A DNA stretch of 64,000 nt, taken from Erodium maritimum (Eukaryota; Streptophyta; Magnoliopsida; Geraniales; Geraniaceae). The DNA is taken from contig OY997589.1 in the NCBI GenBank assembly GCA_963921825.1, positions 50,090,546 to 50,154,545 on the forward strand, in the 5' to 3' direction. This document shows, in pieces, positions 15,929 through 53,701 of the stretch. The notes under the pieces are model-generated. The model was not told where the DNA came from. It saw nothing but the letters and a program-made list of their open reading frames with translations, and did no database searches. A program made the position numbers and the translations under genes. The stretch's first letter is position 1. Each line of letters starts with the position of its first letter.

Positions 15929-16332
15929 CGCACTCTGGTTTGAGAAACAGTTTTGAGTATATCCTGCATGTGATATGTGCGTAGGTTTATTGTATGAAAA
16001 TATGCACATTTTGGTTTGCAGATGTGTTTTTTAGTTGATGCATACCCTGTTACCGATTGACTTGTTTGCTAATATGCTTTACCTAGTTTGCGGATAGTGA
16101 ATATATGTTTTGCGAGTATGATTTACCTAGTTTGCGGATAGTGAATTTATGTTTTGCGAGTATGCTTTACCTAGTTTGCTTATAGTGATTCAATGTTTTG
16201 CGAGTATGCGCACTCTTGTTTGAGAAACAGTTTTGAGTATATCCTGCATGTGATATGTGTGTAGGTTTATTGTATGCAAATATGCACATTTTGGTTTGCA
16301 GATGTGTTTTGTAGTTGATGCATACCCTGTGT
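15929..16332 (+). repeat. Spacer repeats upstream of the Ulp1 gene
   Basis: Two copies of a ~124-bp segment starting CGCACTC at 15,929 and 16,209 (period 280). Between them, at 16,076-16,207, lie three 44-bp tandem units containing CTAGTTTGCGGATAGTGAAT and TTTTGCGAGTAT. All are variants of the element-wide motif in plus orientation. The element C LTR insertion point falls at the edge of the first copy. Confidence 0.85.
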
Positions 16333-18239
16333 TTTATTTGTTTGCATTTAATCACATTAACATGCTTCTTTTTATCGTATTCAGAGGATTGCAGAAAGGT
16401 TTTGATTAGCGGGGAGTAAGGTTGCAGAAGGTTTTATGGAATGGCCTCAGTTGTTGGTTGAAAGGCATATCGCCGATCCCAATACTGAGTGTTTCAAGGT
16501 AGTGTCAACTCTGTTTGATGGTTTGACTGGGAATAAAAAAACCCGAAGATGCCATTCCAGAGACACAAAGTGTGTTGCTGTCACAAGACTCGTGGTTTAA
16601 TTTACCCGGGGTTATCGAGACCATTGAGAAGTTGATTGAAGCAGCAACACGCGTTGGGGAAGGGTACAAAGGAGCAGAGAAGCCACCTGCTCGTGCCGTT
16701 ACTCCACCAACGTTCAGACTTCTTTCACTATCCCAAAAGTCGTCTGCGAATGTTCTTTCACCATGCCCTGCTGGATCCACTATATTGTCAAGCCCTGAAT
16801 GCGATAATGTGGTTCGGAAATTGTTTGGAAGTAATGATGCAGCCCCTGTGGATAATATGGTTGCAGAAAAAACTGAGCCAGAAAGAATAACTGCGTTGGT
16901 GATGAGTTTGACGTTATTTCTGTTGCTTTTGGTATTGGGAAGGAAGCTTGTGAGATGGTTGTTGATCATACAATCGCGGAACTTGAAGCTTCTGATGTTG
17001 TTAAGAAATATGATTGTTGGGCTGTTGCAGTGCAATTAGACCCACTTACTATAGAAGGCAGTCAAGGAAATGTCAACGGGTCTGCGTCTGTCAATGACTT
17101 TTGTCAGACACTTCAAATGCAACCCGAGCCACTCAATATAATTGTTGTCGAACAAAATGTCAACAATGAACCACCTGTTAATCAAGCTTGCAAGACTCAA
17201 CCACCGCCACTTGTTACTGGACGGGTTGACCAAAATATCAATCGTGCTATTGGTGGGAAAGAGGTCCCTGAGGCAGTTGACGAGAATCCTGAACTTGCAA
17301 TGGCAAGATTTTGTGAATCCATAGTCCAACGCCCTGCTGTCATATCTCTTCCTGCTAAAAAAGGCCCCGTGCATCCTCCTAAGAAGTCGACTGATGGTGT
17401 TGGTCATGTGGAGTCTGGCTCAGTTATTAATCCACCAAAGAAGAGAGCTCCCGCTCGTGCACCCGGTAAGAAAGGCCCCGCTGCTGTCCCCGAGAAGAAA
17501 TTACCCCCTACTGTTGCAGCAAAAAAAGCTCAAGGTGCTGTTAAGAAAAATCCCCCTGTTGTTAAGAAACGTGCTGCAACTGGTAAGGGTTTTACGACAA
17601 TTGGGTGTAGCGAGGCATCTTTATTAAGGGAAACCCCAGCCAAACAACCTTTACCTCGTTTGATTGCACCGTCTAAATTTCTATGTTCTCCGTATGTTGA
17701 TCGTCAAACAGATTATTGGTCCGATATTCTGGAGGTTGAGGAGTGTCTTGCTGATTGGGTGCTGAATATAAGCAAATACGATGATTGGTAAGTAAAATAT
17801 GTTTTCCCCCCTTTTTTTTTATATATTTTATTTTAGCAAATACAGTGAATAGGCTTTTCTCTCTGTGAATGCATGGATTTTATATTTGAGTGCTCTGATA
17901 ATTGTATTACTAAGGGGGGCTTTAATTCTTTCAAAACCGATGCATGAATTGAATTGGAAACTATTAATGGGTGGTGTCACTATCTGAATCATCTGGAAAC
18001 GATTAAGACTGATTCATCACCTAACCGGTTCTTCTTTGCAGCTTCTCTTAGTGTAAGCATAGTTTGCGCATTTTTTTGGTTGAATACGTTTATAGTATGA
18101 ATTACTTTATTGTGTTTTGTTATTTATATGTTTATTTTGTAGGCTTCGATTTCGGAACATAAAAAAGATGTAGATTTTGACGATGTTTTCAAGATTGAAA
18201 CTAAGGAGTTCCCTTCTTTTTCATGGAAGAAGTTGGACT

Positions 18240-18600
18240 TGGTAAGTATAATACATGGCTGGTTTTAGAATATGCAATATGTTGGTTGCAGTTAAGGATT
18301 GTATGTTTTGCGGTTATACGCACCCTTGTTTGAGAAATAACGTTTACCTGTTTTGAGACACGCAGTATCTGGTTTGAGGTTATGGATTTTCTTGTTTGCG
18401 AATATGCTCTATACAGTTTGCGGATAATGAATACATGTTTTGCTGATAAGCGCACCCTGGTTTGGGAAACAGTTTCCCCTGGTTGCTGATAATGAATATG
18501 TAGTTTGCAGATAGTGAATATCGGTTTTGCTGATATAGTAGTGAATGGTTGTATTATATAAACCAATTTATTCATTATATTAATATGCTGATATATTTTA
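18240..18600 (+). repeat. Motif-rich intron of the Ulp1 gene
   Basis: The intron between exons ending near 18,240 and starting at 18,615 consists largely of motif variants in plus orientation: TTTTGCGGTTATA, TTTGAGAAATAA, TTTGCGAATATG, TTTGCGGATAATG, TTTGCAGATAGTG and TTTTGCTGATATAG. Spacing is roughly 20-40 bp. Neighbouring exons do not contain it. Confidence 0.8.
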
Positions 18601-21520
18601 TATATTTTTAACAGGTTTTCATGGTTGTTTTTAAGAGCAATCACTACACACTCTTATGCATCGACATGAAGAACGTAAATTCAGTTATTATTGAAAATGT
18701 CAAAGGAACGGTTGATGACGATATTCGTTATGGAAAAATACACTATACATTGGTACATATTCTTCTCTCATTGACTATGTGTTTGATTACTGTCTATCTA
18801 TTTATTTCTGTTTTTATTTGTCACGCCCTAATTTCAGTAAACCGAACTCAGGACGCGAACGTTCAAAACAATAAAACATTTTGAAACCTTTTACATAAAT
18901 CACTTTAAAATCACCATTTGTTCATCAAAATAATCATTTACAACTTAAAGGTACGTCCCAACAAATGGACAAAATGCAAGGTATACGTCGCTAGACTCAA
19001 AATAAACCCAGAATCCCGCTCCTAGCTCTTCAAGCTTCAGAAGCTCACCTAGTCCAACCTGCGACCGGTACCTGTAGGAAAAGCAGCTAGGGGTGAGCGT
19101 TCGCTCACCACCACGGATAACAGACTTACTACGACATAATTAGCAGACAATGTCGGTAACACCAACAACCAACTCAACACCGGGGATCACTATCCCAAAA
19201 CTCAAGTAACCCGACCGACACCCACACACTGATACTTTCCTCAACCGACTCAGCACTCGGACTCGTAATGTAGACCCGACACAACGATTGACGACCTCCT
19301 CCAAAGACACGACAGACAACCACGCAACACCCAAGATCACAAAGGATCGCACCCCAAACAAGATCACAAAGGATCGCACGCCAGCTGCATAGTAACCTCT
19401 CTCACTCACGCGCTTTGACGATCCCTGTCGGGCCAGGCGGTCGACCTGTCTCAGTAACCTCTCTCACTCACGCGCTTTGCCGATCCCTATCGAGCCAGGC
19501 GGTCGACCTGTCTCAGTAACCTCTCCCACTCACGCGCTTCCCCGACACAAAGTCGGGCCAGGCGGTCGACCTGTCTCAGTAACCTCTCTCACTCACGCGC
19601 TTTGCCGATCCCTGTCGGGCAAGGCGGTCGACCTGTCTCATTAACCTCTCTCACTCAGGTAACCACAATCACAATCACAAGCAAGTTCAACAAACAGCAA
19701 CAACACATGTTCAACACTCCACAGGCACTCATGGCCACCCAAGACACACCGACCATAACTCACGGGCTCAACAACCCCACGACACTCACGGCCACCCAAG
19801 ACACACCAACAGTAACTCACGGGCTCAACAACCCCACGGGTACTCACGGCCACCCAAGACACACCGACAATAACTCACGGGCTCAACAACCCCACGGGCA
19901 CCCATGGCCACCCAAGACACCAACAGTAAAACATGGGCTCTCATGGCCACCCAAGACACAACAGTAATACGGGCTCTCATGGCCACTCAAGACACAATAG
20001 TAATACGGGCTCTCATGGCCACCCAAGACACAACTACACAATCAACCTCCGGGCATAACCAATGCCTCCAGCAGTTCTAATATCAACAGGCTCACAATCA
20101 ACCTCCTGGCATGGTCATATGCCTCCAGCAATTCTAACATCGATAAGTTCTCTGCTCCTACGACACTACTAAGTGTCACATGCAACTCTAATGTTCGATA
20201 CGTTCCCGAATCATACGACACCACCCGGTGTCGCCTGCCTTTCTAATATTCGATAAACTTACTAAACCCACGACACCCAAGTGTCACATGCATTTCTACT
20301 GTTAACTTTCCCTAGTCAGGGCCGAGATCCGGCTACTTTTCCCTACCTCTTGAAGCGTGTCAAACCCGATACTCTTACTCCGGAAAAGCTCCATAATTCC
20401 CGCTTAGCCTCCTATTTCCACGGTAGGCGACACGGTCTACAATCATTACAATTAACACATTTTTTAAGTAAGCATGCGAAACCCGAATTTAAAGAATTAA
20501 ACGCCCAAATGCAACCCCGACAATGTCGATCACTCCCAAACTTCCCAATTACTCGACATTGTCGCTAATGGACCCGGGAAGGCCCGATTCGCCCGACATG
20601 GCGAATCTGCCCGGGTTTGGAAAACGTCCTTCCGGGGCTACGAAAGTTCCCGTTTTTGTTTCTACGGTCTTAGAATAATTCAAGGGTTCCAATGCAATCG
20701 ACGGAATCGAATTCCGACTTCCGAGCGATTTAATTCGTGTTTAAAGTTTCTAAACCCGTAAATTCCAACTTTCACAATTTAATTACGAAATTCGTTCCGG
20801 GTGTGAATTAACGACTTGGGGATCGTACTAAACCACCCGAACACGAATACCCGATACCCGAGCATGTGGGCCCCACACGGCCACAACGAAAAATGTTCCT
20901 TTTCGCCCCAAAACGTTCCTAACGAACCCAACACCTCAACTCATCCATATTTAACCCATTTCAATCCAAACCCTAACTTTCAAACGTACCAAAACGAAAA
21001 TCAATTAGGTTCTCACCGTAGGGAATGATGACAGGAGCTCGATTCTTCAATCGTTGAGACGATCCACCGGTTGGATCGTCGGGAAATCACCAAAACGTCA
21101 CACTTTCTCTTCTCTTTTTCCCTTTTCTCCTTCTTTTCCTTCTCTCCACTTTCTCTCTCTACTTTCTCCTTTTTTTCTTTCTAAATGGCCGAGACTTCAC
21201 TTTGCTTTTCCTTTTGTTTTGTTTTAAAAACAACAACTAACACCATATTTACAAAACTAACACTCCAAGTCTCATCTTTATTTTGTTCAAGAAACCTAAC
21301 ACCACCACATAATTGACATGTGGCAAGTAGGTACCACACCTTTTTGAGATTCGCGAAATTTGGACGTTTCGGGCCCCAAACGGGCACTTTTTCCAAGAAA
21401 TTACGAAAGTTCACGGGCTACAAGGAAACGGCTCAACTAAGACCGCTGCGACGACGGCTAAGCTTTTTGGATCCAAAACGGTCCTCGAATGGACCAAAAC
21501 GTCGCCCGGTTGACTTTTCC

Positions 21521-24508
21521 TGTAATAACCACTTCTGGTCAACGTCAGTCAAACCTACGAAAAACAGGAAAATTTAAAATTTTTAAGACAGACACTTAAC
21601 TTAACTTAAATTGACCCCGAGGGTCATGCCGGACTTAAGTTGACCCCGTTATCGACTAAAATGAGTTACGGGGGACTCAAGGCAACTTTCTGGTCATTTT
21701 GGGAAAGATTGATTTTTCGCTGGAAAAGTCACCCGAGCGACGTTTTGGTCCATTCGAGGACCGTTTTGGACCCGAAAGGCTTAGCCGTCGTCGTAGCGGT
21801 CTTAGTTGGGCCGTTTCCTTGAAGCCCGTCCAGTTTAAATTTTTTTTGGGAAAAGTGCCCGTTCGGGGCCCGAAACGTCCGTTTTTCGCGAATCTGATTG
21901 GAAAATATCAACTAGATATTTTCCAAAAGGTTGGGACCCACCTTGACACTTGTCAAGTATATGGTGGTGTAATTTTTGGAGGGAAAAGGTGTGGTTGGGA
22001 AGTGTTGGCCGACCATATTGGTTAAAGGGGGGGGGGGAGTTGGGTTTTGTGTTAGTTATTTTAAATTAGAAAAGAAGAAGAGAGAGTTTAGAGAGAGAAG
22101 GAGAAGAAGAAGAAGAAGAAGAAGGAAGAGAGGGAAGTTAGGGTTTGGAGGAAAATCAAACCTTTGGATCGTCTTGAAGCAAAGAGCAATCCTGTTCCCC
22201 TCGTTCTCCTCTACGGTAATACCCGAACCGATTCTCGTTTCGATTATTTTCAAGAGCTAGGGTTTGGTTATAAAATTTGGTTTAGGGTTGTGTAGAGATT
22301 AGAGAGGTGTTGGAGACGTTTTAGAGGTGTTTGGGAGAGAAATTTCACGTTTTCCGGTGACCGGAGGCTCGGGAGGAGCTCCGGCCATGTGGTGGCTGGC
22401 CGGAGGTGGCAGCAGCCACCACTTGGTGGCCGAGCCCCTCCCTCAAACCCTAGGGCACGGCCAACCCTTTGGGTGGGGCCCACGTGCTCGGTTGTTCGTG
22501 TTTTAATTACTCGGGTAGTTTAAAACGTTCCCCGGACCATTTATCCTTAATCGAACCGAAATTTGGAATTAAATTGGAGAAGTTGTAATTAACGGGTTTT
22601 GGAAACTTTAAACGATAATTAATTGACTTAGAAGTCGGAATTCGATTCCGTCAGGTGCGTTGGGTTCCTTGAAATATTCTGAGACCGTGGAAACGAAAAT
22701 GGGGGCTTTTGGAGCCCCGGAAGGCAATTAACCAAAACCGGGCAGATTCGCCATGTCGGGCGAATCTGGCCCTTACGGGTCCTTTTTCGGCAATATCGAG
22801 TAATGGGAAGTTTGGGAGTGATCGGCATTGTCGGGGTTACGTTTGGGCGTTAAGTTGTTAATTTTCGGTTTATTCGTACTAGTTTAAAAGTACTTTGAAA
22901 TTGTGTTCTTTTAGATCGTGCTACGGACCGAGGCAAGGGAAAGCTTGGCGAGTGACTAGGTCCACTTCGGGTTTTGTTGGAGCGCTTTTGGATCTGTATA
23001 CGAGGTAGGGAAAAGTAGCCGGATCTCGGCCCTGATTAGGGAAAGTTAATAGTAGAACTGCATGTGACACCGGGGTGTCGTGGGTTGAGTAGAATTATTT
23101 AATTATTAGAGAAGCATTATACGGGATTGTAGCGTTTAAGAGAAAAGCTTGTGACACTTAGTAGTGTCGTAGGAACAGAGAACTTAGCGATGATTGAATT
23201 ACTGGAGGCATATGACCATGCCCGGAGGTTGCTTGTGAAACTAGTGATCTTAGGACTATTGGAGGCATCGTGTATGTCGGAGGTTGTTGTGTGTATTTAA
23301 TTGTTGAGTTTGGGTGGCCTTGAGAGCCCGTGTTATTTATTGTAGAGTCTGGGTGGCCTTGAGAGCCCGTATTTAATTGTTGAGTTTGGGTGGCCTTGAG
23401 AGCCCGTGTTATTTATTGTGAGTTTGGGTGGCCTTGAGAGCCCGTATTATTTATTGTTGAGTTTGGGTGGCCTTGAGAGCCTGTGTTTTTATTGTTGAGT
23501 TTGGGTGGCCATGAGAGCCCGTGTATTTAATTTGCTGTCTTGAGTGGCAGTGAGTGCCGTGGGGTTGTTGAACCCGAGTCTTGACCGTTGGTGTGTCTTG
23601 AGTGGCAGTGAGTGCCCGTGGGGTTGTTGAACCCGAGTCTTGACTGTTGAGGTGTCTTGAGTGGCAGTGAGTGCCCGTGGGGTTGTTGAACCCGAGTCTT
23701 GACTGTTGGGGTGTCTTGAGTGGCCTTGAGTGCCTGTGTGATTGAACTTGCCTGTGATTGTGATTGTGGTTACCTGGGGTGGTGAGTTCTAAAGGTCGAC
23801 AGCCTGATCCGACTTAGTGTCGATGAATTGCGAGTTCTAAAGGTCGACAGCCTGATCCGACTTAGTGTCATGAATTGCAAGTTTGAAAGGTCGACAGCCT
23901 GATCCGACTTCGTGTCGAGGAATTGCGATAGGTCGAACCCTGACCTGATTGAGATTGGTTACTGAGCAGCTGGTGTGCGATCCTTTGTGATCTTGTTTGG
24001 CGTTGTGTAGTCTTTCTGTCGTGTCCTTGAGGAGGTCGTCGATAGTTGTGTCGGGTTTACGCTGTATCATCGAGTGTTGAGTCTGTTGAGGAAGGTGACG
24101 GGTTGTGGGTCAGTTGAGTACTTGAGTTGGGGACTGTAGTCCCGGTGTTGGGTTTGGTTTTAGTGTCACTGGCTTTATCTACTACTTATGCCATAGTCAG
24201 TCTGTTATCCGTGGAGGTGAGCGAACGCTCACCCCTAGCTGCTTTTCCTACAGGTACTGATCACCGGACGGACTAGGTTAGCTCTTGAAGTCCATGGAGC
24301 TTGGAGCGGAGTCTGGTCTTTACTTTTGTTGAGTATAGTGACGGATGTGTACCTTGTCCTTCTGTTGGGGGCGTTTTTGTATTGTAAATACTATTATTAT
24401 TTTGAGAAGTAAATGGAAATGTCAGAGTTTTATTCAAAACAGGTTTTAAGTGTTCATGTTTTAAATGTTCGCGTCTCGAGTTCGGTTCGCTGAAATTGGG
24501 GCGTGACA
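21521..24508 (+). mobile_element. Solo LTR nested in the 3' LTR of element D (TSD TTTCC)
   Basis: A 2,988-bp plus-strand LTR from TGTAATAACCACTTC to GGGGCGTGACA, flanked by TTTCC at 21,516-21,520 and 24,509-24,513, with no internal region. It carries an 11-base G run near 22,026, a GA/GAA-rich tract (22,070-22,130), and two minisatellite types: ~37-40 bp units with GGGTGGCCTTGAGAGCCCG (23,310-23,520) and 58-60 bp units (23,530-23,720). It was formed by LTR-LTR recombination after insertion, so it is younger than element D. Confidence 0.92.
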
Positions 24509-24714
24509 TTTCCAGCAAAAAGTCAACATTTCCCAAATTGATCAGAAAGTTACGCTGAGTCCCCCGGAACTCACTTTGGTCGATATCAGAGTCAACTTAA
24601 GTCCGGTATGACCCTCGGGGTCAAATTTGGGTTCATTTAAGTGTCTGTCCAAATTTTTTAAATTTTCCTGTTTTTCGCAGATTTGACTGGCGTTGACTGG
24701 GAGTGGTTAATACA

Positions 24715-25571
24715 ATCTACCCCCCTTAAAGGAATTTCGTCACGCGAAATTTAAAACAACGCACTTCAGTAGTCGAACAGATCGGGGTACTTCGCGGGAA
24801 CCTCGTCCTCGCGTTCCCAAGTCGACTCGGCCTCGTGGTGCCGCCACTGCACCCGTTCTAAGCGGATAACCTATCCTCGCAGGACCTGCTCTCGTGGATC
24901 CGTTTCCCAAACTGGTTTCTCTTCATACAAGACATCACTCGTTACCTCGGCATCTGCCCACTCAATGACGTACTCAAGACCTCGAAAGGCCCGATACACC
25001 GCGGGGTTAACCCTCCTCCGCCGCGGTTGAAACGCACCAGTCCACCTTTCGGACTCACCTCCAGGAACACATGACCACTGATTGCTGACTCGAGAGGTCA
25101 GCGCCGTCTGTCAGCATAGCTCCTGCTGACCCTGCGCGGTCTTCAACCGCTCACGCTTCGGCAAGACCGACTCAGCTCTCTCTCGGTCCAGTTATAGACC
25201 CAGTGAACCCTCATTTCTCACTTCTGCCCCGCACACGGGCGACCGACACGACCTACCATACAACGTTCCGAACGGTGCCATCATGATACTTGCCTGAAAG
25301 CTGTTGTTGTAGGCGAACTCGGCTAACCGCTCACAAAACCCATCGTGACGTGCCCCCATTTCCACTGTGTAACCCGCAGTGGCTGCAATAATCCAGCGGG
25401 ACGCTGTTGTTCGGCTCTCACCTGCCGACGAGTGAGGCATCGCGATACTAACTCCGCGACCGCTCTCCGCATCCCGCTCCCCTTAGACATGCCACCTGAT
25501 GTCGCGCTCCTCTTAGTGCTACCCACATGCACTGTCAGACGCGAATGCTGCGACTCTCGTAGCTCGTCGCC
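24715..25571 (-). pseudogene. Integrase C-terminal and chromodomain-like remnant of element D
   Basis: Minus strand. The polypurine tract complement lies at 24,715-24,732, next to the 3' LTR. Upstream come a chromodomain-like tail with WRHHEAE near 24,840, the integrase end with [11 protein letters not shown] and [16 protein letters not shown] (25,240-25,330), and a [21 protein letters not shown] zinc-region sequence in another frame (25,350-25,430). The sequence joins protease at CTCGTCGCC (25,563-25,571). Catalytic integrase, RNase H and RT are absent. Multiple frameshifts are present. Confidence 0.75.
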
Positions 25572-26110
25572 AGTAACGGTCGGTATTGGCTCGGCACTTC
25601 GCCAGCCAATCCATTCCCAAGATTACGTTTAAAGGTTGTCATTTTGTAAGTATCCTTCCCACGGATACATGCACAAGCTCAGTCTCTTCCGATCCTCACG
25701 GATCCTCGCAGTCTCTCTAAGACCTCGCTCCACTACCGTCGTCGTGCCCACCAACTCCGAACATACCCGATCCTCGGGGTGAGGACTCGATCCAGCATCA
25801 GGGATCTTGAGCCCTCTCTCGAACCTCCTGTATCGGTTCGCTTCTCCAACTCCGCAGGCATGACAGACCCTAGTCAACACCACCCCACCACCATCCGGCG
25901 TGTCCAGACGCAGGGGTGGACTCAACGACTCTAAACTCAGCCTCAACCTCTCAGCACAACTCGACGAACAAACGAGTGTGACATCCCGGTATCCAATAAA
26001 ACTGACGCCCAAATCGAAGACCGAACACCCACTCCATTAGTCACTCTGGTAAGGTCTAGTGCAACCCTCACACGGTCCTCTATGCATTTACTTATAACTT
26101 TCCGCAACCA
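25563..26110 (-). pseudogene. Aspartic protease remnant of element D
   Basis: Minus-strand retropepsin sequence with DTGMSHSF at about 26,000. One missing base in the following Ser-rich stretch shifts the frame into CAERLRLSLESLSPPLRLD. It includes the same extra segment (NRYRRFERGL ... YPWEGYLQNDN) as B and E. It ends at the junction with integrase sequence. There is no gag upstream: the leader follows directly. Confidence 0.78.
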
Positions 26111-27560
26111 AACCAGTGTTCACTACTTGTCCCTTGCGGGAAAAGTAGTAAAGGGGATGAGCGTTATGCTCACCTCCACGGACACCCGTTCGATTATGGC
26201 ATACTAGTAAAGCACTAAGGACTTACTGATCTAACCAGGGCAAACCACTACCTCAAAATCTGATGCCAAACATCACACTGCTCACGCTATCAACACCTCA
26301 GTACTCGCTCATGTAAGATAAACCTCGACACGGGAAACACGTCCTCAATTCAGTAAATTACTATTGCTCACAACCTCAATACCCCAATTACCCGATCAAG
26401 TAGGGAAACCTCAAGACGGGGATCACGCTCTCAACTAAGCAAACACTATTGCTCACACTATCAATACCCCAATAACCCGATCACTATTGCTCACACTATC
26501 AATACCTCAAATAACCCACTCACGTGAAGGAAACCTCAACCCACCCGTTCACGCGAGGGAAACCTCGAACACCCGTTCACATAGGGAAACCTAGTTCGTA
26601 TGGCGCCGCAGCGCACCAACTCTAACCCCTCTCCGTGGTGAGACTCTCACACCGAGGCGCTGTATCACTACCGCAGGTTATTGATGAGTCTCGAACACAA
26701 GACCTCATCCCTTTAACACCGAACTTACGGCCTCTACAACCAACACAATCATTTACACGGTCATGCAAAATCGACACTCAAATTGCACAAACAAGACGGT
26801 GGCAACGACAGGGGTCACGGACCTGTGACAGACCCCGTCACGGTTGGTGTCACGGTGCCGTGAAGAAGGCTCTATAATGGCCAAAACGCGCTGCTTCGTC
26901 ACGGATCCGTGACAGGGTCCGTGACACTCGCGCATGCCAGTTTTCCAAAAACGTTTCAAACTCGACCCTTACTCCTTTTTAACCTCAAAAGAAACCTTAA
27001 ACGGCACACACGCTCGACCCACCAATTTACCAACACACGCACGACAATTCAAGACCAAACACAAGTCTCCCGACCTCAATCATAAGCCGACACAACCAAA
27101 CAACACACAACAACGCCCGCCCACCGGGCCAACCAACGTCGAACCACGCCCACCGGGCCAACCAAAATCAAAACACGCCCACAGGGCCAATCAATTTTAA
27201 AAACTTTCTCCTTTTCATTATAAAACCTCATACTTGATATCACGCAGTTACAACCCGGTCCAGGCGTCCCCGGAATACATTGTACCCACTTGATATCAAC
27301 ACCGTCACGCTCGACTACAGGGGCGCCCCTGAGTCGAGTCGCGACAGTTTAAAAAATGTTTCACGCAACAACACACAAACAGTATGCCAGTAACCCCGTA
27401 CTGCACATTCACACACACACAAACAGGACTCAAAACACAACGGGCCTACACACGGTTCCGACCTGCGTACCCAACGCACGACGGGACTTTACTAACTCGA
27501 CTCTCCCCACCTAATTGACGTACAGTCCGAGGTGTGAAACCTCGAGCTCTGATACCAAGC
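26111..27560 (-). other. Gag-less leader and primer-binding site of element D
   Basis: The leader is built as in B, C and E: GGGAAACCTC repeats (26,310-26,590), then palindromes (26,815-26,928) with a perfect GTCACGGATCCGTGAC at 26,898-26,913, then CACCGGGCCAACCAA units (27,115-27,190). The tRNA-Met primer site is at 27,546-27,557, three bases from the 5' LTR. No open frame of note. Confidence 0.8.
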
Positions 27561-28555
27561 TGTCACGCCCTAATTTCAGTAAATCGAACTCGGGACGCGA
27601 ACATTTTAAACAATAAAACATTTTGAAACCTTTTACATAAATCCCGAAATTCAGACGTTTCGGGCCGCGAACGGGCACTTTTTCCAAGAAATTACGAAAC
27701 TTCACGGGCTACAAGGAAACGGCTCAACTAAGATCGTTGCGACGACGGCTAAGCTTTTTGGATCCAAAACGGTCCTCGAATGGACCAAAACATCGCTCGG
27801 TTGACTTTTCCAGCGAAAAGTCAACATTTCCCAAATTGGTTCGAAAGTTACCCTGAGTCCCCCGGAACTCACTTTGGTCGATATCAGAGTCAACTTTAGT
27901 CCGGTATGACCCTCGGGGTCAAATTTGGGTTCATTTAAGTGTCTGTCCAAAAATTTTAAACTTTCCTGTTTTTCGCAGAATTGACTGGCGTTGACTGGGA
28001 GTGGTTATTACATTATTTATGTTTCTTTGGTTTTTTTGTTTTGCGTAGAGGTCTAAAATTTGCAAGGTCAGAACAAAAACTGATATAGCTCTAGCTCAGA
28101 AAATTTTCAAAGGTAAGATTGATCGGCTCCATGTACCATGAGAATCTAACGACAATCATATAGATTGTGGGGTGTATGCTATGTGGCACATGAAATCGTA
28201 TCTTGGCAATGAGAATTGGGCAGGAGAATTGGCCATTAATGATGTAAGTTAAACCAACAATTATTTCTTTGTCAATATATAACAATGAGTATAGATTTGA
28301 TCTTTAAATTTCGGTTTTGTAGGCTACACAAATGGGATTATTGAGGAAAAGATTCATCTTTAAGTTGGTCACATTTGAGAAGAACAGCCCGTGGAGAGAA
28401 ATTGAGGAGAATATCAGAGATTATTTCAAAAAGAAGAAGATCACATTCGAATTTAGTGTCAAGTATAAAGTCTTATTACCATGTGAACGTCATAAAGCTT
28501 AGTGAATTACTCTTTTTGATTATTGATATTTGTTGTCAGAAACGACAATTTTGTT

Positions 28556-30177: not shown

Positions 30178-30468
30178 ATGTCACCATATAGAAAGTACTG
30201 TAGTAGCGGTGAGGAAGAGGTAACTTCAAAGAGACGAAGGCTGATTTCACATGGTGATGAAGAGGATTTCCCTATTATCATCAGTGATGGTGACGATGAT
30301 GAGAAAGAGGAGGAGAAAGAAAATGGGGAGTAAGAAGATGATGAGGAAGACGAAGAAGACGATGACGGTTATAATGGTGATGTTGAAGGTGATGATGATG
30401 AGGAATTGGAAGAAGAAGATTACGGTTATAATGGTGATGTTGAAGAGGATGAAGAAGAAGAAGAAGAA

Positions 30469-42911: not shown

Positions 42912-45767
42912 TGTCACGCCCCAAATTCAGTAAAACCGAACCCGGAACACGAACGTTTAGTTTAATAAAACCTTTTTGAACCTTTAAATAAAAAACTTCA
43001 AAACCACCAATTTAGTTACACAAAATAATCATTTACAACTCAAAAGTACATCCCACAAGCGGACAAAATACAAGGTATACGTCGCTAGACTCAAAAGTAA
43101 ACCCGGACTCCGCTCCCAGCTCTTCAAGCTTCGAGAGCTCACCTAGTCCATCCCGCGACCAGTACCTGTAGGAAAAGCAGCTAGGGGTGAGCGTTCGCTC
43201 ACCACCATGGATAACAGAATGACTACGGCATACTTAGCAGACAATGCCGGTAACACCAACACCAACCCAACACCGGGGACTACAATCCCAAAACTCAAGT
43301 AACCCGACTGACACACAAACTGTCACTTTCCTCAAAAGACACGAAACTCGGACACGTACTGTAGACCCGACACAACGATCACGACCTCTTCCAAGGACAC
43401 AAAGACAACCACGCAACACCCAAGATCACAAAGGATCGCATACCAAACAAGATCACAAAGGATCGCACTCCAGTCAGCTGCTCAGTGCCGGTTGCTAACC
43501 GGCTGGGCTCGAGCCTGTCCCACGCACTTTACTGATCCCTGTCAGGCTCCAGGCAGTCGACTTGTTGGCGATAAACCGAGCTACTTTTCCGATAGCTAGT
43601 CGGAAAGGGAGCAACCCTCCATCGCCTAAGAATGCTCAACCTGCCGATCCCTGTCAGGACAGGCTAGCCAAAGAACGCTCGACTTGTCGATCCCTGTCAG
43701 GCAAGCCAGCCAACCTCCACGCAACCTCCCGACAAAAAGTCGGGTCACTAACCTCAGGCAATCACAATCACAATCACAAGAAAAGTTCAACAAACAGCAA
43801 CGAGACCCGTTCAACACTCCACAGGCACCCATGGCCACCCAAGACACCAACGGAAAAACACGGGTTCTACAACCCCACGGGCACTCATGGCCATCCAAGA
43901 CACACCGACAGTAACTCACGGGCTCAACAGCCCCACGGGCACTCACGGCCTCCCAAGACACAACTACACAATCAACCTCCGGGCATAACCAATGCCTCCA
44001 GCAGTTCTAATATCAACATGCTCACAATCAACCTCCGGGCATAACCAAATGCCTCCAGTAATTATAACATCGATAAGCTCACTTATCCTACGACACTACT
44101 AAGTGTCACATGCCTTTCTAATGTTCGATACGTTCCCGTATCATACGACACCACCCGGTGTCGCCTGCCTTTCTAGTATTCGATAAACCTACTTAACCCA
44201 CGACACCCAAGTGTCACATGCATTTCTACTATTAACTTTCCCTAGTCAGGGCCGAGATCCGGCTACTTTTCCCTACCTCTTGAAGCGTGTCAAACCCGAT
44301 GCTCTTACTCCGGCAAGGCTTCATAATTCCCGCTTAGCCCCCTATTTCCACGGTAGGCGACACGGTCTACAATTATTACAACTAACACACTTTTTAAGTA
44401 AGCAAGCGAAACCCGAATTTAAAGAATTAAACGCCCAAACGCATTCCCGGTAAAGTCGATCACTCCCAAACTTCCCAATTACTCGACATTGTCAATAATG
44501 GACCCGGAAAAGCCTGATTCGCCCGACATGGCGAATCTGCCCGGGTTTTTAAAACGCCCTTCTGGGGCTCCGAAAATTCCCGTTTTCGTTTCTACGGTCT
44601 TAGAATAATTCAAGGGTTCCTAGGCACTCGACGGAATCGTGTTCCGACTTCCGAGTAATTTAATTTGCGTTTAAAGTTTCTAAACCCGTCAATTACAACT
44701 TTCACAATTTAATTCCAAATTTCGATCCGGGTGTGGATTAATTACTTGGGGAACGTTCTAAACCACCCGAACTAGAAACCCGAATACCCGAGCATGTGGG
44801 CCCCACCCGACCCCCTTTGGCCGTGGGTGGCTAGGGCCGGTTTGGGGCCAGTCCACCAAGGTGGTGGCTGGTCCTAACTCCCCCGAGCCTCCGTTCACCG
44901 GAAAATGTTCATCTCTTCGCTCCAAAACACCTCCAACGAACCCCACACCTTAACTCATCCATATTCAACCCATTTCAAACCAAACCATAACTTTTACACT
45001 TAACAAAATGAAAATCGGTTAGATGCTCACCGTAGAGAATGACGGTGTGAGCTTGAATCTTCTATCATTGAGACGATCCAACGGCTTGATGAACGACAAA
45101 CGTCACAAATCCCCCAAGCCTCTTCTCTTTTTCTCTCTTCTTCTCTCTTCCTTCTATCTACTTTCTCTCTCTAAAAAACTCTTATTTTCTCCCTTTTTGA
45201 ATGTGTGGCCAAACACTTCTATTTGATCTTCTTTTTGTTTTGTTTTAAAACAACAAATAATACTTAAATTTCAAAACTAACCATCAAGTAGTCTTATCTT
45301 GTTTGTCCAATAAACCTAACACCACCACATTGGTGACATGTGTCAAGTGGGTCCCATCCCTTTTTGGAAAATATCTGCTAGATATTTTCCAATCAGATTC
45401 GCGAAATTCGGAAGTTTCGGGCCCCGAACGGGCACTTTTTCCAAGAAATTACGAAACTTCACTGGCTACAAGGAAATGGCTAAACTAAGACCACTGCGAC
45501 GACGGCTATGCTTTTTGGATCTAAAACGGACCTCGAATGGACCAAAACGTCGCTCGGTTGACTTTTCCAGCGAAAAGTCAATATTTCCCAAATTGGTCAG
45601 AAAGTTGCCCTGAGTCTCCCAGAACTCACTTTGGTCGATATCGGGGTCAACTTAAGTCCGATATGATCCCTCGGTAATTTTAGGTTCAATTCAGTGTTTG
45701 CCTAAATTTTTTAAATTTTCCAGTTTTTCGCAGATTTGACTGGCGTTGACCGGGAGTGGTTATTACA
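42912..45767 (-). mobile_element. 5' LTR of element E
   Basis: A 2,856-bp LTR with the same ends as the partner at 33,775-38,783 and no nested insertion. It differs from the partner mainly by a shorter minisatellite and a ~30-bp deletion near 44,880, with scattered substitutions. Both LTRs lie in minus orientation, so transcription would run away from 45,767 toward 33,775, the same strand as the transposase gene. Confidence 0.92.
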
Positions 45768-46778
45768 AACATCCTAGTGAAGGACTCGATATCCTCGTGT
45801 GTTACCAGTCCCAGCCCAAAAGTCACAGATTTGTCATAGTTGTCTACTCCTGTAAACGGACAAAATGGCATCGAGTACCTACAAAACATCAATCGTTAAT
45901 AAAGAATAATGTTTACAATTGCTTTTTGAATGAATTAGGGAATAAGAGTAATACTTACTGGTTAGTCCTGTAAGTTGTGTCAAAGGAAACATTATCCCCA
46001 TAAAGCTTGTAATTCTTGATAGCTATTTCATCACACCAGAATAGCTTAGTCAGGCTTCTGCTTGTGTCAACATCGTACTCATAGTAGAATTTGTTTTGGG
46101 CTACCTTCTTGTCACGGAACTGGTCAAGGATTATCTGAACATCACTTCCTCCAATATAGGCTTTCAAGTCCCTGTGGTAGTTGAAGAAATCTTGCTTTAA
46201 AGCTCCAACATGGCTGGGGCCTCCGCGTGTTTCACTGATTAGTCTGTGTGCCTTTGAGGGACCTATTCCCGATCTCTCGCAAAAGTTCATATACTCAACA
46301 TGGTTGCCTTCCATGTGTCGGTTACCTCACATCTCATGTATGTGCTCCGCTCCAACCATAGGGTGGTTATGACCTTCAACAAATTTTGATACTTTGTATC
46401 CTAATTCCTCCGAAACAAATGTGAACCTTATCATTGCTTCACAATTAATTCTTGTGAGCAATCTGTTCCTCATTTTTGTAGTCTTTGAAAGTTGCGGACT
46501 GTTTTGTTCGGGGATCTCACTCTGTTTGGAGCATACCATGTACTTTAGCTTTATGTTGTTTGTTTTATCCTTCTTCTCCATAGACCTTCTTGTAGTGAAT
46601 CCAGACAGTCTAGCGTAATTTTGGTAGAAATCTATCGCCTTATTCAATGTCTTGAATTCCTTACCTACAAACGGCGTTCGTTCAGGCTGGCAGGATGGCA
46701 AGTATATCCTGGTTCCTCCAGCAGAAAACAGAACAGTGTTGTGGAGATCTGATTCTGCAGTACAGTCACTGTGTGTGC

Positions 46779-47197
46779 CTGCAGCTGATATTCATCGAAA
46801 TAAGGATCAGTTTGACGATGTAATAATTTCAGATTGCATATACAGCACACATAGAATCAGATAGTTATAATATACACAGATTGATACAGAGGCAGTAGTA
46901 TATAGTAACAGGCAAAGCAGATTATTCTTCCTTTGCGAAAATAAGCAAGTTAGTTTGCGGATTTTGTACATCTAGTTTGAGAATGTTTCATGGAGGAGAT
47001 TTTATATATTGTTTGAGAAGAAACAAATATTTTATGTCGCTAAATATCGTACAACACAAACTACTGTTTTGAGTACCTAGGCATTCTAGTTTACGAATAA
47101 AAAAACCACCATGATTATGACGTTTTGGTCAACTGAAAAACAGAATTTGCAGCGATTCTAGAAGCAAATCAATTTTGTTGAATGGATCTATACTTAC
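46779..47197 (-). repeat. Motif-rich first intron of the transposase gene
   Basis: The intron between exon 1 (MSSSI) and exon 2. It has plus-orientation motifs at 46,930-47,100: TTTGCGAAAATAAG, TTTGCGGATTTTG, TTTGAGAATGTTTC, TTTGAGAAGAAAC, TTTTGAGTACC and TTTACGAATAAAA. The donor is GTAAGTAT and the acceptor CTGCAG. Confidence 0.7.
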
Positions 47198-47589
47198 GTA
47201 TTGAAGAAGACATCTCGATTTGTGTATTGGATAGCTGTGATAAAATCCGACGATATCAATCAATATATCCGGCGATCTCTATTGCGATTTCCGACGATCT
47301 CACGGTGCGATCTCTCGGTGCGATCTCTGGTGCTATCTCAGGTGCGATCTAAGTTTTTGTTTGGAATCAAGTTTCGAAGAATCATAGTTTCTTTTGATCT
47401 AGTCCGTGATCTCGATTTCTTCGAGAAAACTCCGATCTAGGGTTTATATTTAGGAAATCGTAGAGATTTTTTCGAGAGACTTTCTAACTCTGTGTTTGAT
47501 TCGATTTCTGATTTGTTGTTCAGGAACTTTCCGTTTTCTAATTTGGAGGTTTTATAGAGGAAGTTGGGGTAAATTCGCGCGCTAATCTA

Positions 47590-47890
47590 GGACCGTCGAT
47601 ATATTATTCGCAATGGACGAACCCAATTCAGTTTTGAAAGTTCAATCAAAACAGTTTATTTTATGAGCGAATAGATTCTTTGCGTATATTTGATATTTAG
47701 TTTGCAGATTTTTCATATCAAGTTTGCGGATATTTCATATATAGTTTGCGGATATTTCATATCTAGTTTGCGGATGTTTCATATCTAGTTTGCAGATTGG
47801 TTTATATCTAGTTTGTGAATATTGTCTGTCATGTTGAGAATACAGAGAGCATGGTTTGAGAAAAAACAGCATCTAGTTTGAGAATATTCA
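47590..47890 (+). repeat. 22-bp motif tandem array upstream of the transposase gene
   Basis: Six tandem copies (47,699-47,831; period 22-23 bp) of AGTTTGCGGATATTTCATAT, then TTTGTGAATATTG, TTGAGAATACAG, TTTGAGAAAAAAC and TTTGAGAATATTC. This is the most regular form of the element-wide motif. It lies between the transposase start and helical gene 3. The stretch 47,214-47,590 holds GATCTC-rich 5'-flank sequence with no gene. Confidence 0.85.
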
Positions 47891-48262
47891 TAGATTCATC
47901 AGGAAAAGATGGTGTGTGAAACACCAAACAAAAACATAAAAGACGACATGCATGAAAAAAAAGATACCACTAATCTTCTTCTTGATGTGGCTTAGGGATC
48001 TACAGTTATCTTTTCCGAGGAATTCTTGGTACTCCCTCAGTTTCTCAAGCATGCGTTCTTTGGAAGCTCTTTCTTCTGTGTTCCAGGTAAGGTTTTCGTT
48101 CGTTTCGATTTCACCCAAGAGCTTGACCACCTGCGCATCCATCATCATCATATTGTACTGTATTTTTGTAAATTTAAGCTCCCATGGATGGTGGATGGAA
48201 GCCAAACGCCTGACTTCATCCTCTGCATTCATGTGAGCCCATTCAGCATTCATAGAGGCCAT
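47888..48262 (-). CDS. Small helical protein gene 3 of the giant element
   Basis: From ATG 48,262 (MASMNAEWAHMNAEDEVRRL) the frame runs 124 codons to 47,888. The helical block MMMMDAQVVKLLGEIE, then NTEERASKERMLEKLREYQEFL, matches the layout of genes 1 and 4. The last ~35 residues are hydrophobic and look like read-through. In the next frame the sequence ends PHQEED with TAG at 47,970-47,972, similar to the EED end of gene 1, so a late frameshift probably replaced the true C-terminus. TATTTATAG (48,327-48,335, minus-strand TATA) and the G-box GACACGTGTC (48,533-48,542) lie upstream. No known family. Confidence 0.6.
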   Translation of the reverse strand: MASMNAEWAHMNAEDEVRRLASIHHPWELKFTKIQYNMMMMDAQVVKLLGEIETNENLTWNTEERASKERMLEKLREYQEFLGKDNCRSLSHIKKKISGIFFFMHVVFYVFVWCFTHHLFLMNL

Positions 48263-48772: not shown

Positions 48773-51739
48773 TGTAAAGACCGAGAAAAATTTAACGTTT
48801 AAATTATTAAATTATAACGTCGAGGTTGGGAACGAGTTTGCTTTGTCAAAAAAAACTGAAGAGCATGCTCGTTTTGGGCCGTGCAGTTTGGCCAGGCCCA
48901 TTTCGAGGCCCAACCCATCTGCTGCCCCTTGTATAAAAGACCCAACAATTAGGGTTTTGCCCTAATTTCCCCTCCACTCAGCCGAACCCTCTCTCCTCCT
49001 TCACCTTTCCCCTTCGTCTTCTTCGACCTCCGTCTCCCTCGCCTCTCTCTCTCTCTCTCGTGTCGACCCTCTCACCGAAACCCCTCACAGACGCCGTCGC
49101 CGGCCGTCCCCGACCACCCTCTCCCTCACCTCTCGGCCGTCTCCGTCCAGCCACGACGCCACCACCGAGCCCTCTTCCTTCACCGTCCAGTTTCCCGTCG
49201 CCGAGCCCCTCCCTCTCTCGGGAACAGGTACGGAACCTCGCCCTTCCTTTTCTGTTTCACCGGAACGTCGCTGTAGCCCGACGTCGCCGACGAGCTCACC
49301 AGATCCGGGACGGGACACCGAGCCGTCCGGATCTGAGGCCGTAGCCTCCGCCTCCTCAGGTCTCCTGAACCGCCTTCGTCCTCTCCTTCGTCTTCTCCTC
49401 CCTTCGCCGTCGCCGTGAACGACCGGAGCCAGGTCGCCGGCGCGTTCGACAGATCCGGGACAGAGCCACCGGGGCCGTCCGGATCTGAGGCGAGGAAGGT
49501 CCCCGCCATGCACCGCCGCCGCGCACCGCCGTGCACCGCCCAACCGCCCTTCCCTCCACGTGAGGTTCGTGCCTAGGGGTTTAGTCGCCGGCGGCCGGTT
49601 TATTTTTCCGTACCGTTCGTCCCTTTTATTTGGTTTCTGTTGGATCTGAATTTTTGTCTGAAAACGACGAGAAATATTGTAAATTTCAGTGACAAGAAAT
49701 AAAACGAGTTCGATTTGAAAGTTGTTCTTTTTTTTGGTTTTGAGATCTGTTTTGGGTAGTGTTGGATCGAATCAGAAACAAGCTAAAATCAAAGAGTTGA
49801 TCTGTTAAAAAGGGCCTTTGATTAAAACAACTTGGTTATGTTTGAATAAAGACAAGATTGTGTTTTAGAACAAAAAAGGGGTTTTGATTGGAAAATAAAG
49901 GTTTTGATTGGAAAATTAAAATCAGAATCGACTTGAGATGGTTTTGGGACTAAAATCGTCGGAAATAGAAGTTGGGTTTTAGAAAATGGAATTAAAGAGA
50001 ACAATCAGATTCGATTTAAAATGGACCTTGAACTTTTGAGCGTGGAACGAATAACCGGACTATTGAACAGACTTAGGATGGGTTTAACAGCGGAACGCTG
50101 AATCGGACCTCGGGATTCGTGCATTGGGACCGTGCCTCGGAAACATGCACCAGTTTCGGTGCTCGGGTACTCAAACCCGATTCGCCGTGACCCCGCTTTT
50201 ATCCCTCTCGAGCTTAAAGGAAAACTGTCGGTTCTAAACTAGACTAATCGTAACCTTTAGTTTAACGGTGGAACCGTTATTGATTTGTGGCTTCGTGTTA
50301 TCTTTAGCGTCCGACTTCGATCGAGGTGAAGCCCGGAGGTAGCGAGCCAAAACGTCAGCAGCTAGGAACGTAGCGGGTGTTCTTCGGTTGAGGTAGGGAA
50401 AAGTAGCCGGATCTCGGCCCTGACTAGGGAAAGTTAACTGTAGAATTGCATGTGACACCAGGGTGTCGTGGGTTATTTAGGTTATCGAATATTAGAAAAG
50501 CATGTTACGGGAACTTAGTAATTATTGGAAAGGCATGTGACACTTAGTAGTGTCGTAGGAGCAGAGAACTTAGCGATAATTGATTTACTGGAGGCATATG
50601 ACCATGCCCAGAGGTTGTTTGTGAAACTAGTGATCTTAGGACTGTTGTAGGCATCGATTATGCCGGAGGTTGTTGTGTGTTAATTATTGTTGATTTGGGT
50701 GGCCTTGAGAGCCCGTGTTATTTATTGTCGAGTTTGGGTGGCCTTGAGAGCCCGTGTTATTTATTGCTGAGTCTTGGGTGGCCATGAGAGCCGTGTTGTC
50801 GTTTCGGTGTTTTGGGTGGCCGTGAGTGCCCGTGGGGTTGTGAACCCGTACTTTACCGTTGGTGTCTTGGGTGGCCAGGAGGGCCCGTAGGGTTGTTGAA
50901 CCTGTGTTTGGTTGTTGGTGTCTTGTTGGCCTTGAGTGTCTGTGGAGTTGTCACCGGTGTCGTTACTGTCTGTTTGAACTTGTTTGTGATTGTGATTGGT
51001 TACTTGATACTGGTGGAGGTTGTGTGGTGTAGTTAGCCTCCCGACTGGGATCGGGAGAAGCGGAGGGGTTGTGGGCTAGCTCCCTGACTGGGATCGGGGG
51101 AAGGACGTGCGGGTGTGGCTAACCACCCGACTGGGATCGGGTGAAGCGGAGAGGTTGTGGGTTAGCCTCCCGACTGGGATCGGGAGAAGTTGCGCGACAG
51201 GTCGACCGCCTGTACCGACTGGGATCGGAAAGGTCGGGATACAGAGATTGGTTACTGAGCAGCTGGTTTGCGATCCTTTGTGATCTTGTTTGGTATTGTG
51301 TGGTTGTCAGTCGTGTCTTTGGAGGAGGTCGTCAATCGTTCTGTGGGGTCTACATCACGTGTCCGAGTGTTGAGTTGGTTGAGGAAAGTACTGGTCGTGT
51401 GTGTGTCTTTTGAGTCGTTGTTGGTGTCACCGGCTTTGTCTGCTAAGTATGCCGTAGTCAGTCTGTTATCCGTGGTGGTGAGCGAACGCTCACCCCTACC
51501 TGCTTTTCCTACAGGTACTGACCACAGGACGGACTAGGTGAGCTCTCGAAGCTTGTGGAGCTAGGAGCGGAGTCCGGGTTGTTTTTGAGTCTAGTGACGA
51601 ATACCTACTTTTGTCCACTTGTTGGGACGTGTTTTAAACTGTAAATATTATTTTGTTGAGCAAATGGTGTTTTTCAAGTGTTTTTATGTTTTTAAAGGTT
51701 CGCGTCCCGAGTTCGGTTCGCTGAAATTGGGGCGTGACA
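48773..51739 (+). mobile_element. Solo LTR with a distinct GC-rich 5' half (TSD AACGA)
   Basis: A 2,967-bp sequence from TGTAAAGACCGAG to GGGGCGTGACA, flanked by AACGA at 48,768-48,772 and 51,740-51,744. The 3' part from about 50,390 matches the other chromovirus LTRs (GGGAAAAGTAGCCGGATC onward, including the GGTGAGCGAACGCTCACC palindrome). The 5' part is unrelated to them. It has a TATA box TATAAAAGA near 48,932, a CT-rich leader-like stretch and a GC-rich region (49,060-49,600) that opens several overlapping frames by composition only. This is either a sister family or a chimeric LTR. Confidence 0.88.
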
Positions 51740-52001: not shown

Positions 52002-52265
52002 TTAGAATCTCTCTTCCACAACGCTTCCAATTATAGTCTTATACATCACGAGTGTCTTCCTCATGGTCCTCCTGCAAGTCATGTGTTCCTCATCCGCGTT
52101 GGATATGTCTTCTTCTTCCAATTCAGCCATCAGGTTGGCCACCCTGTCATGTACTATCATCAAATGGGACTTGATGATTGACAGCTTCAGATGTCGAAGC
52201 TCACGCACGGACCCATGATGTTCTTTGTCTAGAACTTCCACTTTGAGTCTCTTTGAGGATTCCAT
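52002..52265 (-). CDS. Small helical protein gene 4 of the giant element
   Basis: ATG at 52,265 gives MESSKRLKVEVLDKEHHGSV (87 residues, stop at 52,002); the frame extends 5' only through a TTG. The core SHLMIVHDRVANLMAELEEE, then ISNADEEHMT and RRTMRKTLVMYKTI, resembles helical gene 1 (HFLLMEEKVVSLANEL, SNSTEKH). This is the clearest pair among the four. There is no internal stop. The minus-strand TATA is at 52,338-52,346 and a G-box GACACGTGCC at 52,373-52,382. It is divergent from the acidic gene at 52,849. Function unknown. Confidence 0.65.
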   Translation of the reverse strand: MESSKRLKVEVLDKEHHGSVRELRHLKLSIIKSHLMIVHDRVANLMAELEEEDISNADEEHMTCRRTMRKTLVMYKTIIGSVVEERF

Positions 52266-52848: not shown

Positions 52849-53367
52849 ATGTCATCATCTCCCAAGTCTCCATCTATTCTGTATTCTAACAGTGATGGAG
52901 ACAAATGGCAATCTTTCGAATGCAAGTCTCCACCATCACAAATCTTCAGTAGTGATGATGATGACGACGACGTCTGTTCAAAGAGGCGCAAGCTGAATCC
53001 CTCCTCCTCCTCCTCCTCTGATGATGATGATGACCCTTTCATCAATGAGTATGACATTCCTCATGAAGAAGATGAAGAAGAAGAGGAGAATGAGGAAGAA
53101 GATGAAGAGGATGAAGAAGGAGATGCAGAGTTTGAACCAGAAAAAGAAGAACCTCCAACCGCACTTATTCCCGCACCTGCTCCCGCAGAGGGTGATGAAG
53201 AGGACAGTTGTTATGTTGATGAAGATTGGGGGGATGATGATGAAGAAGATGTCCATGCAGAGGATGATGAAGAAGAGCAAGAGGGAGAAGAGGATGAAGA
53301 AGACAACATAGACCCATATGGGCAGGATCCTGAGGAAGAAGTTGTTGAAGATGAAGAGGATTTCTAG
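52849..53367 (+). CDS. Acidic protein gene 2 of the giant element
   Basis: 172 codons from ATG 52,849 to TAG 53,365-53,367. It begins MSSSPKSPSILYSNSDGDKW, then a basic patch CSKRRKLNP after a short Asp run, a Ser run, and an Asp/Glu region interrupted by a Pro/Ala segment (IPAPAPAEG). Seven more codons in frame after the TAG (six Asp, Ala) lead to TAA at 53,389-53,391, so the TAG may be a late mutation. The basic patch plus acidic tail is shared with the gene at 30,178. A nuclear role is inferred from composition only. Confidence 0.6.
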   Translation: MSSSPKSPSILYSNSDGDKWQSFECKSPPSQIFSSDDDDDDVCSKRRKLNPSSSSSSDDDDDPFINEYDIPHEEDEEEEENEEEDEEDEEGDAEFEPEKEEPPTALIPAPAPAEGDEEDSCYVDEDWGDDDEEDVHAEDDEEEQEGEEDEEDNIDPYGQDPEEEVVEDEEDF

Positions 53368-53391
53368 GATGATGATGATGATGATGCTTAA

Positions 53392-53701
53392 TTTCTGTAG
53401 TTCTTTAGTTTTTTTGTGGAAAGTAAATATTTCAACATATGAAATCAATCATGTTTAAGTTTATTTGTGGTTTGTGGATACAGTTTCTTTCGTTTGCAAA
53501 TACAAGAAACCCAGGTTGCATATATAATCATTCCAGTTTGTAAAAAAGTAAACCAAAATGAACACCGTTTGCTGATATCGATATTATAGTTTGCGGATGA
53601 AGAAATTATCTTTTGCAGAAAAGCTAAATAGAGCAAATGATATTTCTCGGAAATTTTTTCATTCATAACACAGGTTGAACAAAAGAGCACCATACAAAAA
53701 A
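53392..53701 (+). repeat. Motif-bearing right edge of the giant element
   Basis: Plus-orientation motifs: TTTGTGGATACAG, TTTGCAAATACAAG, TTTGCTGATATCG, TTTGCGGATGAAG and TTTTGCAGAAAAGC between 53,465 and 53,625. Sequence without motif follows until chromovirus LTR sequence starts at about 53,702. No terminal inverted repeat is recognised. Confidence 0.7.

Follow-up and report, generated by a model that had tools for sequence, protein, structure and literature searches.

Does a C48 (Ulp1)-like gene that lies among a transposase gene and several small genes in the genome of Erodium maritimum belong with them to a single transposon, and what would such a gene set serve? The stretch of DNA in question, referred to as the window, comprises 64,000 bp of contig OY997589.1 (50,090,546-50,154,545) and contains an old, broken transposon copy with nested long terminal repeat (LTR) insertions. 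A first-pass annotation had proposed one multi-gene Mutator-like element (MULE) here, in about 13 kb of older sequence. The proposal is borne out by the collinearity of ten further copies, by one pair of terminal inverted repeats (TIRs) around the genes of one of these copies and by the linkage of a small gene to the transposase gene across the genome. The ~13 kb (a core of 13,618 bp after excision of three insertions) is only part of an element of ~20 kb. This element is one TIR-bounded unit with a FAR1-domain DDE transposase, a C48 (Ulp1)-like gene on the opposite strand, partly tandem-doubled genes for small helical proteins, and acidic proteins that contain a patch of basic residues. The reading that we favour as a whole, and hold to be moderately probable, is that the copy in the window, decayed and nested, belongs to a high-copy, TA-repeat-targeting MULE of ~20 kb and of the FAR1/Jittery type, in which a phased motif would serve anti-silencing.

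The 763-Mb assembly was searched with the last exon of the transposase gene, which yielded at least 107 near-full matches, one in the window and 106 elsewhere with an amino-acid identity of 87-95% (107 matches scored of 914 candidates, a 24-amino-acid fragment in the 108th row being left out). Ten of the 106 other copies were compared, each with 20 kb of surrounding DNA, giving 11 sequences together with the window. Over the parts retained, gene order and strand in all ten are those of the window. The copies are alike piecewise over long stretches, with foreign DNA inserted at differing places; for copies c7a and c7b the likeness extends over ~17 kb. Copy c7b, the only one read end to end, has both ends present and measures 19,960 bp, with (TA)n flanks and imperfect TIRs that agree in 51 of 69 aligned columns. 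The right end of the element was located where copies c4a and c1a cease to match, and the left end via its inverted repeat. Further right ends are present in c4a and c1a, and further left ends in c7a and c3a. All three left ends and all three right ends lie within TA runs, the right end of c4a being just TATATA. The first-pass annotation had called for full-length copies with TIRs and a 9-11 bp target duplication. The TIRs of c7b do enclose the genes, whereas the length of the 9-bp duplication is unreadable at all six ends because the targets are TA repeats. The sequence CACGCGC, presumably the FHY3/FAR1 site, occurs exactly twice in the 19,960 bp of c7b, at element positions 130 and 19825, which is ~130 bp from each end and in the same orientation. 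It was considered as a terminal signal and set aside, as it has the same orientation at both ends and c4a has no such sequence in its last 600 bp.

The TIRs of c7b enclose the FAR1/MULE transposase gene together with a divergent C48 (Ulp1)-like gene, a single acidic gene and eight genes for small helical proteins. With a coverage of at least 80% required, both transposase exons were present in all 11 sequences (11 and 11), as was the helical gene H2; H1 and H3 were present in 9 each, H4 and the C48-like exons with the His and the Cys positions in 8 each, the acidic genes A1 and A2 in 6 each, H5 in 4 and the first C48-like exon in 3. It should be mentioned that the listing of open reading frames (ORFs) covers two of the 11 sequences. 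At the scale of the genome, at least 76 of the 107 transposase exons have an H4 match on the same strand, on the expected side and within 25 kb. The corresponding numbers are 0 for the wrong side and 1 for the wrong strand, and random placement gave a mean of 0.29 and a maximum of 3 in 200 runs. In the reverse direction, at least 87 of 150 H4 matches (150 scored of 709) have such a transposase match.

The transposase gene was assigned correctly at the outset. At the protein level, the joined window pieces match PF10551 (MULE, E=2.8e-24, residues 240-333) and, before this domain, PF03101 (FAR1, E=1.8e-14, residues 26-118). It is noted that 31 TTC triplets at 32134-32226 of the window make the transposase C terminus longer by ~30 lysines, while c7b and c4a have only few of them.

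All six small ORFs claimed for the core, four helical and two acidic, are present. The helical genes number four in the window and eight in c7b, because H1, H2 and H4 are each doubled in the latter, in addition to H3 and H5. H1, H3 and H4 are mutually related and form one family (hhalign 79-94%). A kinship of H2 with this family is unsupported by protein comparison; H2 is weakly like H5 (probability 22% for one H2 copy and 10% for the other), and the two are perhaps a second helical group. The H4 model is a two-helix hairpin with a predicted local distance difference test (pLDDT) value of 87.3, and the single-sequence prediction for H2 likewise has two helices (pLDDT 84.6); against PDB structures the H4 model gave a best E of 0.83. 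The acidic genes A1 and A2 have a short stretch in common (23 columns, 29.5%). Copy c7b has A2 and is without most of A1 (the match of the window stops at 9083 and restarts at 9175), which is present in other copies. H1/A1 (29332-30534) and H4/A2 (52005-53367) are head-to-head pairs, an arrangement that could stem from duplication of a divergent gene pair and its common promoter.

Selection between copies was assessed as omega with 5-95% bootstrap intervals, sequences with <80% DNA identity or <80% coverage being excluded. The in-frame values are 0.34 (0.24-0.45) and 0.43 (0.29-0.64) for the last and first transposase exons, 0.31 (0.20-0.50) for H3, 0.40 (0.22-0.69) for H5, 0.43 (0.29-0.69) for H2a, 0.36 (0.20-0.71) for A1 and, over the N-terminal 70 codons, 0.29 (0.12-0.76) for A2. 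Out of frame, the same genes gave 0.75-2.03. Noncoding pseudo-frames have omega values of 0.47-1.20, the lowest being 0.47 (0.31-0.86) in an intron; the control nc:19300 had too few sequences, and the rows for H1, H2 and H4 may mix duplicates.

The C48-like gene is on the plus strand and has at least seven putative exons, with borders set by eye. The first two, at 1530-2480 and ~2541-2840 of c7b, are missing from the window, and the middle exon in c4a (4043-4906) is a single open frame of 292 amino acids. The initial claim of a C48 protease gene is to be weakened to that of a C48-like gene. The His, Asp and Cys positions can be recognized, and the Cys is kept in all eight of the 11 sequences that have its exon. 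The Asp position reads IIDN in all seven other copies holding that exon, compared to IIEN (Glu) in the window. PF02902 is the sole Pfam match of the c4a exons (E=0.0021) and also matches the c8a exons (E=0.011). The c4a match is below the family threshold, and the C48 exons of the window itself gave no PF02902 match, either singly (E<=1) or joined (E<=1; E<=10).

As the first-pass annotation had noticed, one dispersed motif ties the genes together. The 13.6-kb core contains 56 copies of this motif, TTTG[CA]G[GA]A[TA] (TTTGMGRAW), versus 5 in the other 50.4 kb of the window; the Markov control of the core has a mean of 2.3 motifs and a maximum of 8 in 300 runs. Copy c7b has 83 motifs, which span positions 498 to 19499; 75 of them are in noncoding DNA and 67 on the plus strand. 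Nine are located before the first exon and six after H5; the margins of c7b, terminal repeats included, are without the motif over 497 bp at the left and ~450 bp at the right. Close motif neighbours are 21-23 or 42-46 bp apart in 38 of 38 cases in c7b and in 256 of 269 over the 11 sequences. The expectation for these spacing classes in c7b is 1.6 close neighbours under uniform placement, a null for which any clustering looks rare. The 22-bp phase corresponds to approximately two helix turns. Pairwise mismatch is 4.5% for the motifs, 5.7% for coding DNA, 8.1% for other noncoding DNA and 11.6% for the motif flanks, and a value as low as that of the motifs was reached by none of 300 random sets. 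The comparison was made on ten sequences (nine copies and the window) at sites marked in c7b, with c7b excluded; choosing the motif in c7b and comparing the others limits selection bias and does not remove it. The constancy of the motif between copies may be caused by gene conversion. A chance satellite as the source of the motif is ruled out by the 56 versus 5 count, the low variation between copies and the 22/44-bp phase.

Several of these features are already in print. Jittery-like MULEs with ULP sequences are described for grapevine in PMC2528002, which also cites melon. Like the grapevine elements, the Erodium element combines a Jittery-type transposase and a ULP-like sequence, found in either orientation in grapevine, within one element; unlike them, it has the helical/acidic gene set and the phased array, neither of which is described in the accessible portion of that paper. 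MuTAnT/AutoMuTAnT of Medicago (PMC4486113) is a Jittery-like MULE that targets TA. It shares with the Erodium element the Jittery-like transposase, the (TA)n insertion and the TIRs, and differs in its size of 4.9 kb and its one gene, compared to ~20 kb and many genes. A mobile FHY3/FAR1 element of Kochia scoparia has 16,037 bp and four predicted genes (PMC6808082), and most susceptible plants have four to six copies of it (PMC9297870). Compared by description only, it resembles the Erodium element in being large and in having a FAR1 gene, a gene assigned to a ubiquitin-like superfamily and further genes without assigned function; the helical/acidic set and the motif array of Erodium do not figure in the accessible description of the Kochia element (PMC6808082). 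Jittery-type MULEs with ULP, TA-targeting MULEs and a large FAR1-type element are thus published, and the claim of the first-pass annotation that no such family has been described is to be narrowed to the small-gene set and the motif. For these, no published description was found in a literature search that was aimed only in small part at coiled-coil, acidic or accessory proteins, made no query for the motif and had most subscription journals outside its reach.

The cis-architecture of the element is of the VANC-target type with another motif. VANC21 binds a nine-base motif that is dense and in one orientation in noncoding parts of the element encoding it, and silencing marks disappear there (PMC5735166, PMC10398659). 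According to a review, Ulp1-carrying VANC genes act like VANC21 (PMC13317346). As in the KIU/Kaonashi and VANDAL elements of these three sources, the C48 (Ulp1)-like gene of the Erodium element is on the strand opposite to the transposase, and short motif arrays in one orientation are located in introns and intergenic DNA. In contrast, KIU/Kaonashi and VANDAL elements are mudrA-type and non-TIR, with three genes and the motifs YAGTATTAY or AGTTGTMC, whereas the Erodium element has a FAR1-type transposase, TIRs, approximately ten further genes and TTTGMGRAW.

From this likeness to VANC/VANDAL we infer a possible anti-silencing role. In intronic and intergenic DNA, the phased motif would be bound by an element-encoded protein or complex, which would remove or block the silencing of copies of the element itself, in the manner of VANC in VANDAL elements. 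By the same analogy, the C48-like protein would come first among the candidates, either for reading the array or for removing SUMO- or ubiquitin-like marks. The helical proteins could form oligomeric bridges that follow the array and, by their number and constraint, are also candidate readers, and the acidic proteins could be histone- or activator-type partners.

A number of results weigh against this favoured reading. VANC proteins carry DUF1985, and no DUF1985 or VANC-type Pfam match was obtained with exons 1-2 of the C48-like gene of c7b (E<=1) or of c7a (E<=10), a distant homology being possible. The PF02902 match of c4a, at 18.4 bits, falls short of the Pfam cut-off of 20.7. Neither a 7-sequence profile of the C48-like protein nor a single-sequence search found a protease in the PDB; the position that we take to be the usual oxyanion Gln is Glu; and the Cys exon has stops in c7b as well as in the window. 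Omega of the C48-like gene is 0.41-1.55 over six exon parts, with wide intervals and 3-8 sequences, and indicates no clear purifying selection. The Cys exon is at 1.55 (0.85-4.29), the last exon at 0.93 and the middle exon (c4a 4043-4906) at 1.40 (0.97-2.20), with a lower value of 0.57 in the +1 frame; the middle-exon pattern may reflect fast protein change, relaxed constraint or a misunderstood frame. The lack of clear constraint would argue against a protease under strict conservation, or in favour of fast change, and is not decisive. Many genes are absent or broken in single copies. For H2b, H4a, H4b, H1a and H1b omega is 0.54-0.97, overlapping the noncoding pseudo-frames, and because the latter get down to 0.47, H1, H4 and H2b are unproven as genes by omega; the low values of the other genes rest on 4-11 sequences. 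Finally, the constancy of the motif could come from binding of the transposase or of a host factor.

The last point leads to the explanation that competes most directly with anti-silencing, namely that the FAR1-type transposase or a host factor uses the array as its platform for binding, in the service of transposition or transcription, and that the small genes act as cofactors of transposition, a role that mudrB may have. The similar constraint on the transposase and several small genes agrees with it, as does the extent of the motif over nearly the whole element. However, the motif runs throughout introns and intergenic DNA and is yet missing from both outer margins of c7b, and we know of no MULE transposase that binds internal arrays, so that we consider this explanation rather unlikely. 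A variant that we view as similarly doubtful is that the element brings along a chromatin machine of several proteins, an anti-silencing system that either is independent of VANC or has strongly diverged from it. Coiled-coil proteins from duplicated genes would polymerise on the 22-bp array in introns and intergenic DNA, and acidic partners and the C48-like enzyme would strip silencing marks from copies of the family in trans.

Two further explanations concern the gene set itself. The acidic and helical ORFs could be by-products of GAA/GAT repeats in noncoding DNA rather than genes, in favour of which are the low complexity of the acidic ORFs, the lack of any Pfam family above the cut-off among the small ORFs and the frameshifts and stops of H1 and H4 in several copies. 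This explanation is improbable in view of the frame-specific constraint on H3, A2, A1, H5 and H2a, as given above, and of the likeness of H1, H3 and H4 at the protein level. The gene set might also derive from two or more adjacent elements, one carrying Ulp1 and another the transposase, that share the motif by descent or chance. The window copy is indeed without both ends, and in three of the ten other copies the 20 kb of sequence contain no C48 exons; in these three, however, the likeness to other copies ends before that place, and the C48 exons are at the same place in the other seven. One TIR pair in c7b encloses the C48-like gene, the transposase, the helical genes and A2, by which separate elements are in the main ruled out and are, in our estimation, highly improbable. 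This also runs against the refuting condition named in the first-pass annotation, namely separate loci or boundaries of the genes.

Sequence-specific anti-silencing by transposons is experimentally known from Arabidopsis VANDAL elements. If the favoured anti-silencing reading is true, the Erodium element would provide a second instance for comparison, with another transposase type, motif and accessory genes and the same cis-architecture; the geometry predicted by the 22-bp phase is testable in vitro. FAR1-type elements can attain 20 kb and approximately ten accessory genes. This size and gene load bear on the large FAR1-type element of kochia, which has been linked to gene duplication (PMC6808082).

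The window copy itself (Table 1) is interrupted by three insertions, each with TG...CA ends and a perfect 5-bp target duplication; the perfect duplications had been noticed in the first-pass annotation. Position 15929 is the border of another LTR element within the transposon, directly adjoined by motif DNA, and the right border of the core, 53701-53713, is a truncation at the start of a truncated LTR. Because the left border is the end of an LTR element and the right border a truncated LTR, neither transposon end is in the window. The core is collinear with c7b from ~3,170 to 18,835, besides repeat-array matches further left, where the first part of 15929..18818 also matches c7b arrays from 1054 on. 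The window copy therefore falls short by ~2.8 kb at its left side and by 1.5 kb at its right; the first C48-like exons and the fifth helical gene, H5, are absent, and stops and frameshifts occur in the copy.

Table 1. Features of the transposon copy and of its insertions, in window positions.
Feature	Position	Strand	Remarks
Left part of transposon copy: intron with motif array, then C48-like exons	15929..18818	+	15997-18818 matches c7b 3241-6014, 89%
C48-like gene, long middle exon region	16434..17788	+	frameshifted in window; rich in Lys and Pro
C48-like gene, putative exon	17951..18049	+	tblastn of copy exons
C48-like gene, putative exon	18143..18241	+	tblastn of copy exons
C48-like gene, exon with catalytic-His position (SNHYTLLCID) and Asp position	18615..18752	+	tblastn; aligned by PF02902 in c4a
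LTR-element insertion, in intron of C48-like gene	18819..28012	+	target duplication TTATT
C48-like gene, exon with catalytic-Cys position (DCGVY)	28049..28243	+	in-frame stop in window
C48-like gene, last exon	28323..28502	+	
Motif array, 13 copies	28555..29176	+	spacings of 22-23 and 44 bp prominent
H1, small helical gene	29332..29658	-	in-frame stop; doubled as H1a/H1b in c7b
A1, acidic gene, SKRRRL near N terminus	30178..30534	+	in-frame stop; head to head with H1
H2, small helical gene	30988..31302	-	doubled as H2a/H2b in c7b
Motif array	31506..32103	-	
Transposase, last exon, FAR1/MULE type	32226..33377	-	query-matched stretch; frame continues to 32094 via long Lys run
Transposase exon, part beyond LTR insertion, second part of MULE domain	33640..33774	-	
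LTR-element insertion, inside transposase	33775..45767	+	target duplication AACAT
Transposase exon, part before LTR insertion	45768..45879	-	
Transposase, first exon with FAR1 domain	45958..46791	-	in-frame stop 46327-46329
Motif array between transposase and H3	46932..47885	+	22-bp spacing
H3, small helical gene	47891..48262	-	N-terminal 84 aa common to other copies
Solo-LTR-like insertion	48773..51739	-	target duplication AACGA
H4, small helical gene	52005..52265	-	doubled as H4a/H4b in c7b
A2, acidic gene, SKRRKL	52849..53367	+	head to head with H4
Truncated LTR, same retroelement group	53701..55257	-	transposon right end (~1.5 kb with H5 and right terminus) missing here

The LTRs of the nested retroelements hold tandem repeats of 38-39 and 58 bp (window 13493-14200, 36318-36950 and 53787-54094), the number of which seems to depend on the copy. 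To the right of the transposon, two segments were characterized by eye. The segment at 55258-59632 has ~33 bp identical at both ends and is retroelement-like, and that at 59880-64000 resembles a long interspersed nuclear element, with open frames of 259, 465 and 245 amino acids.

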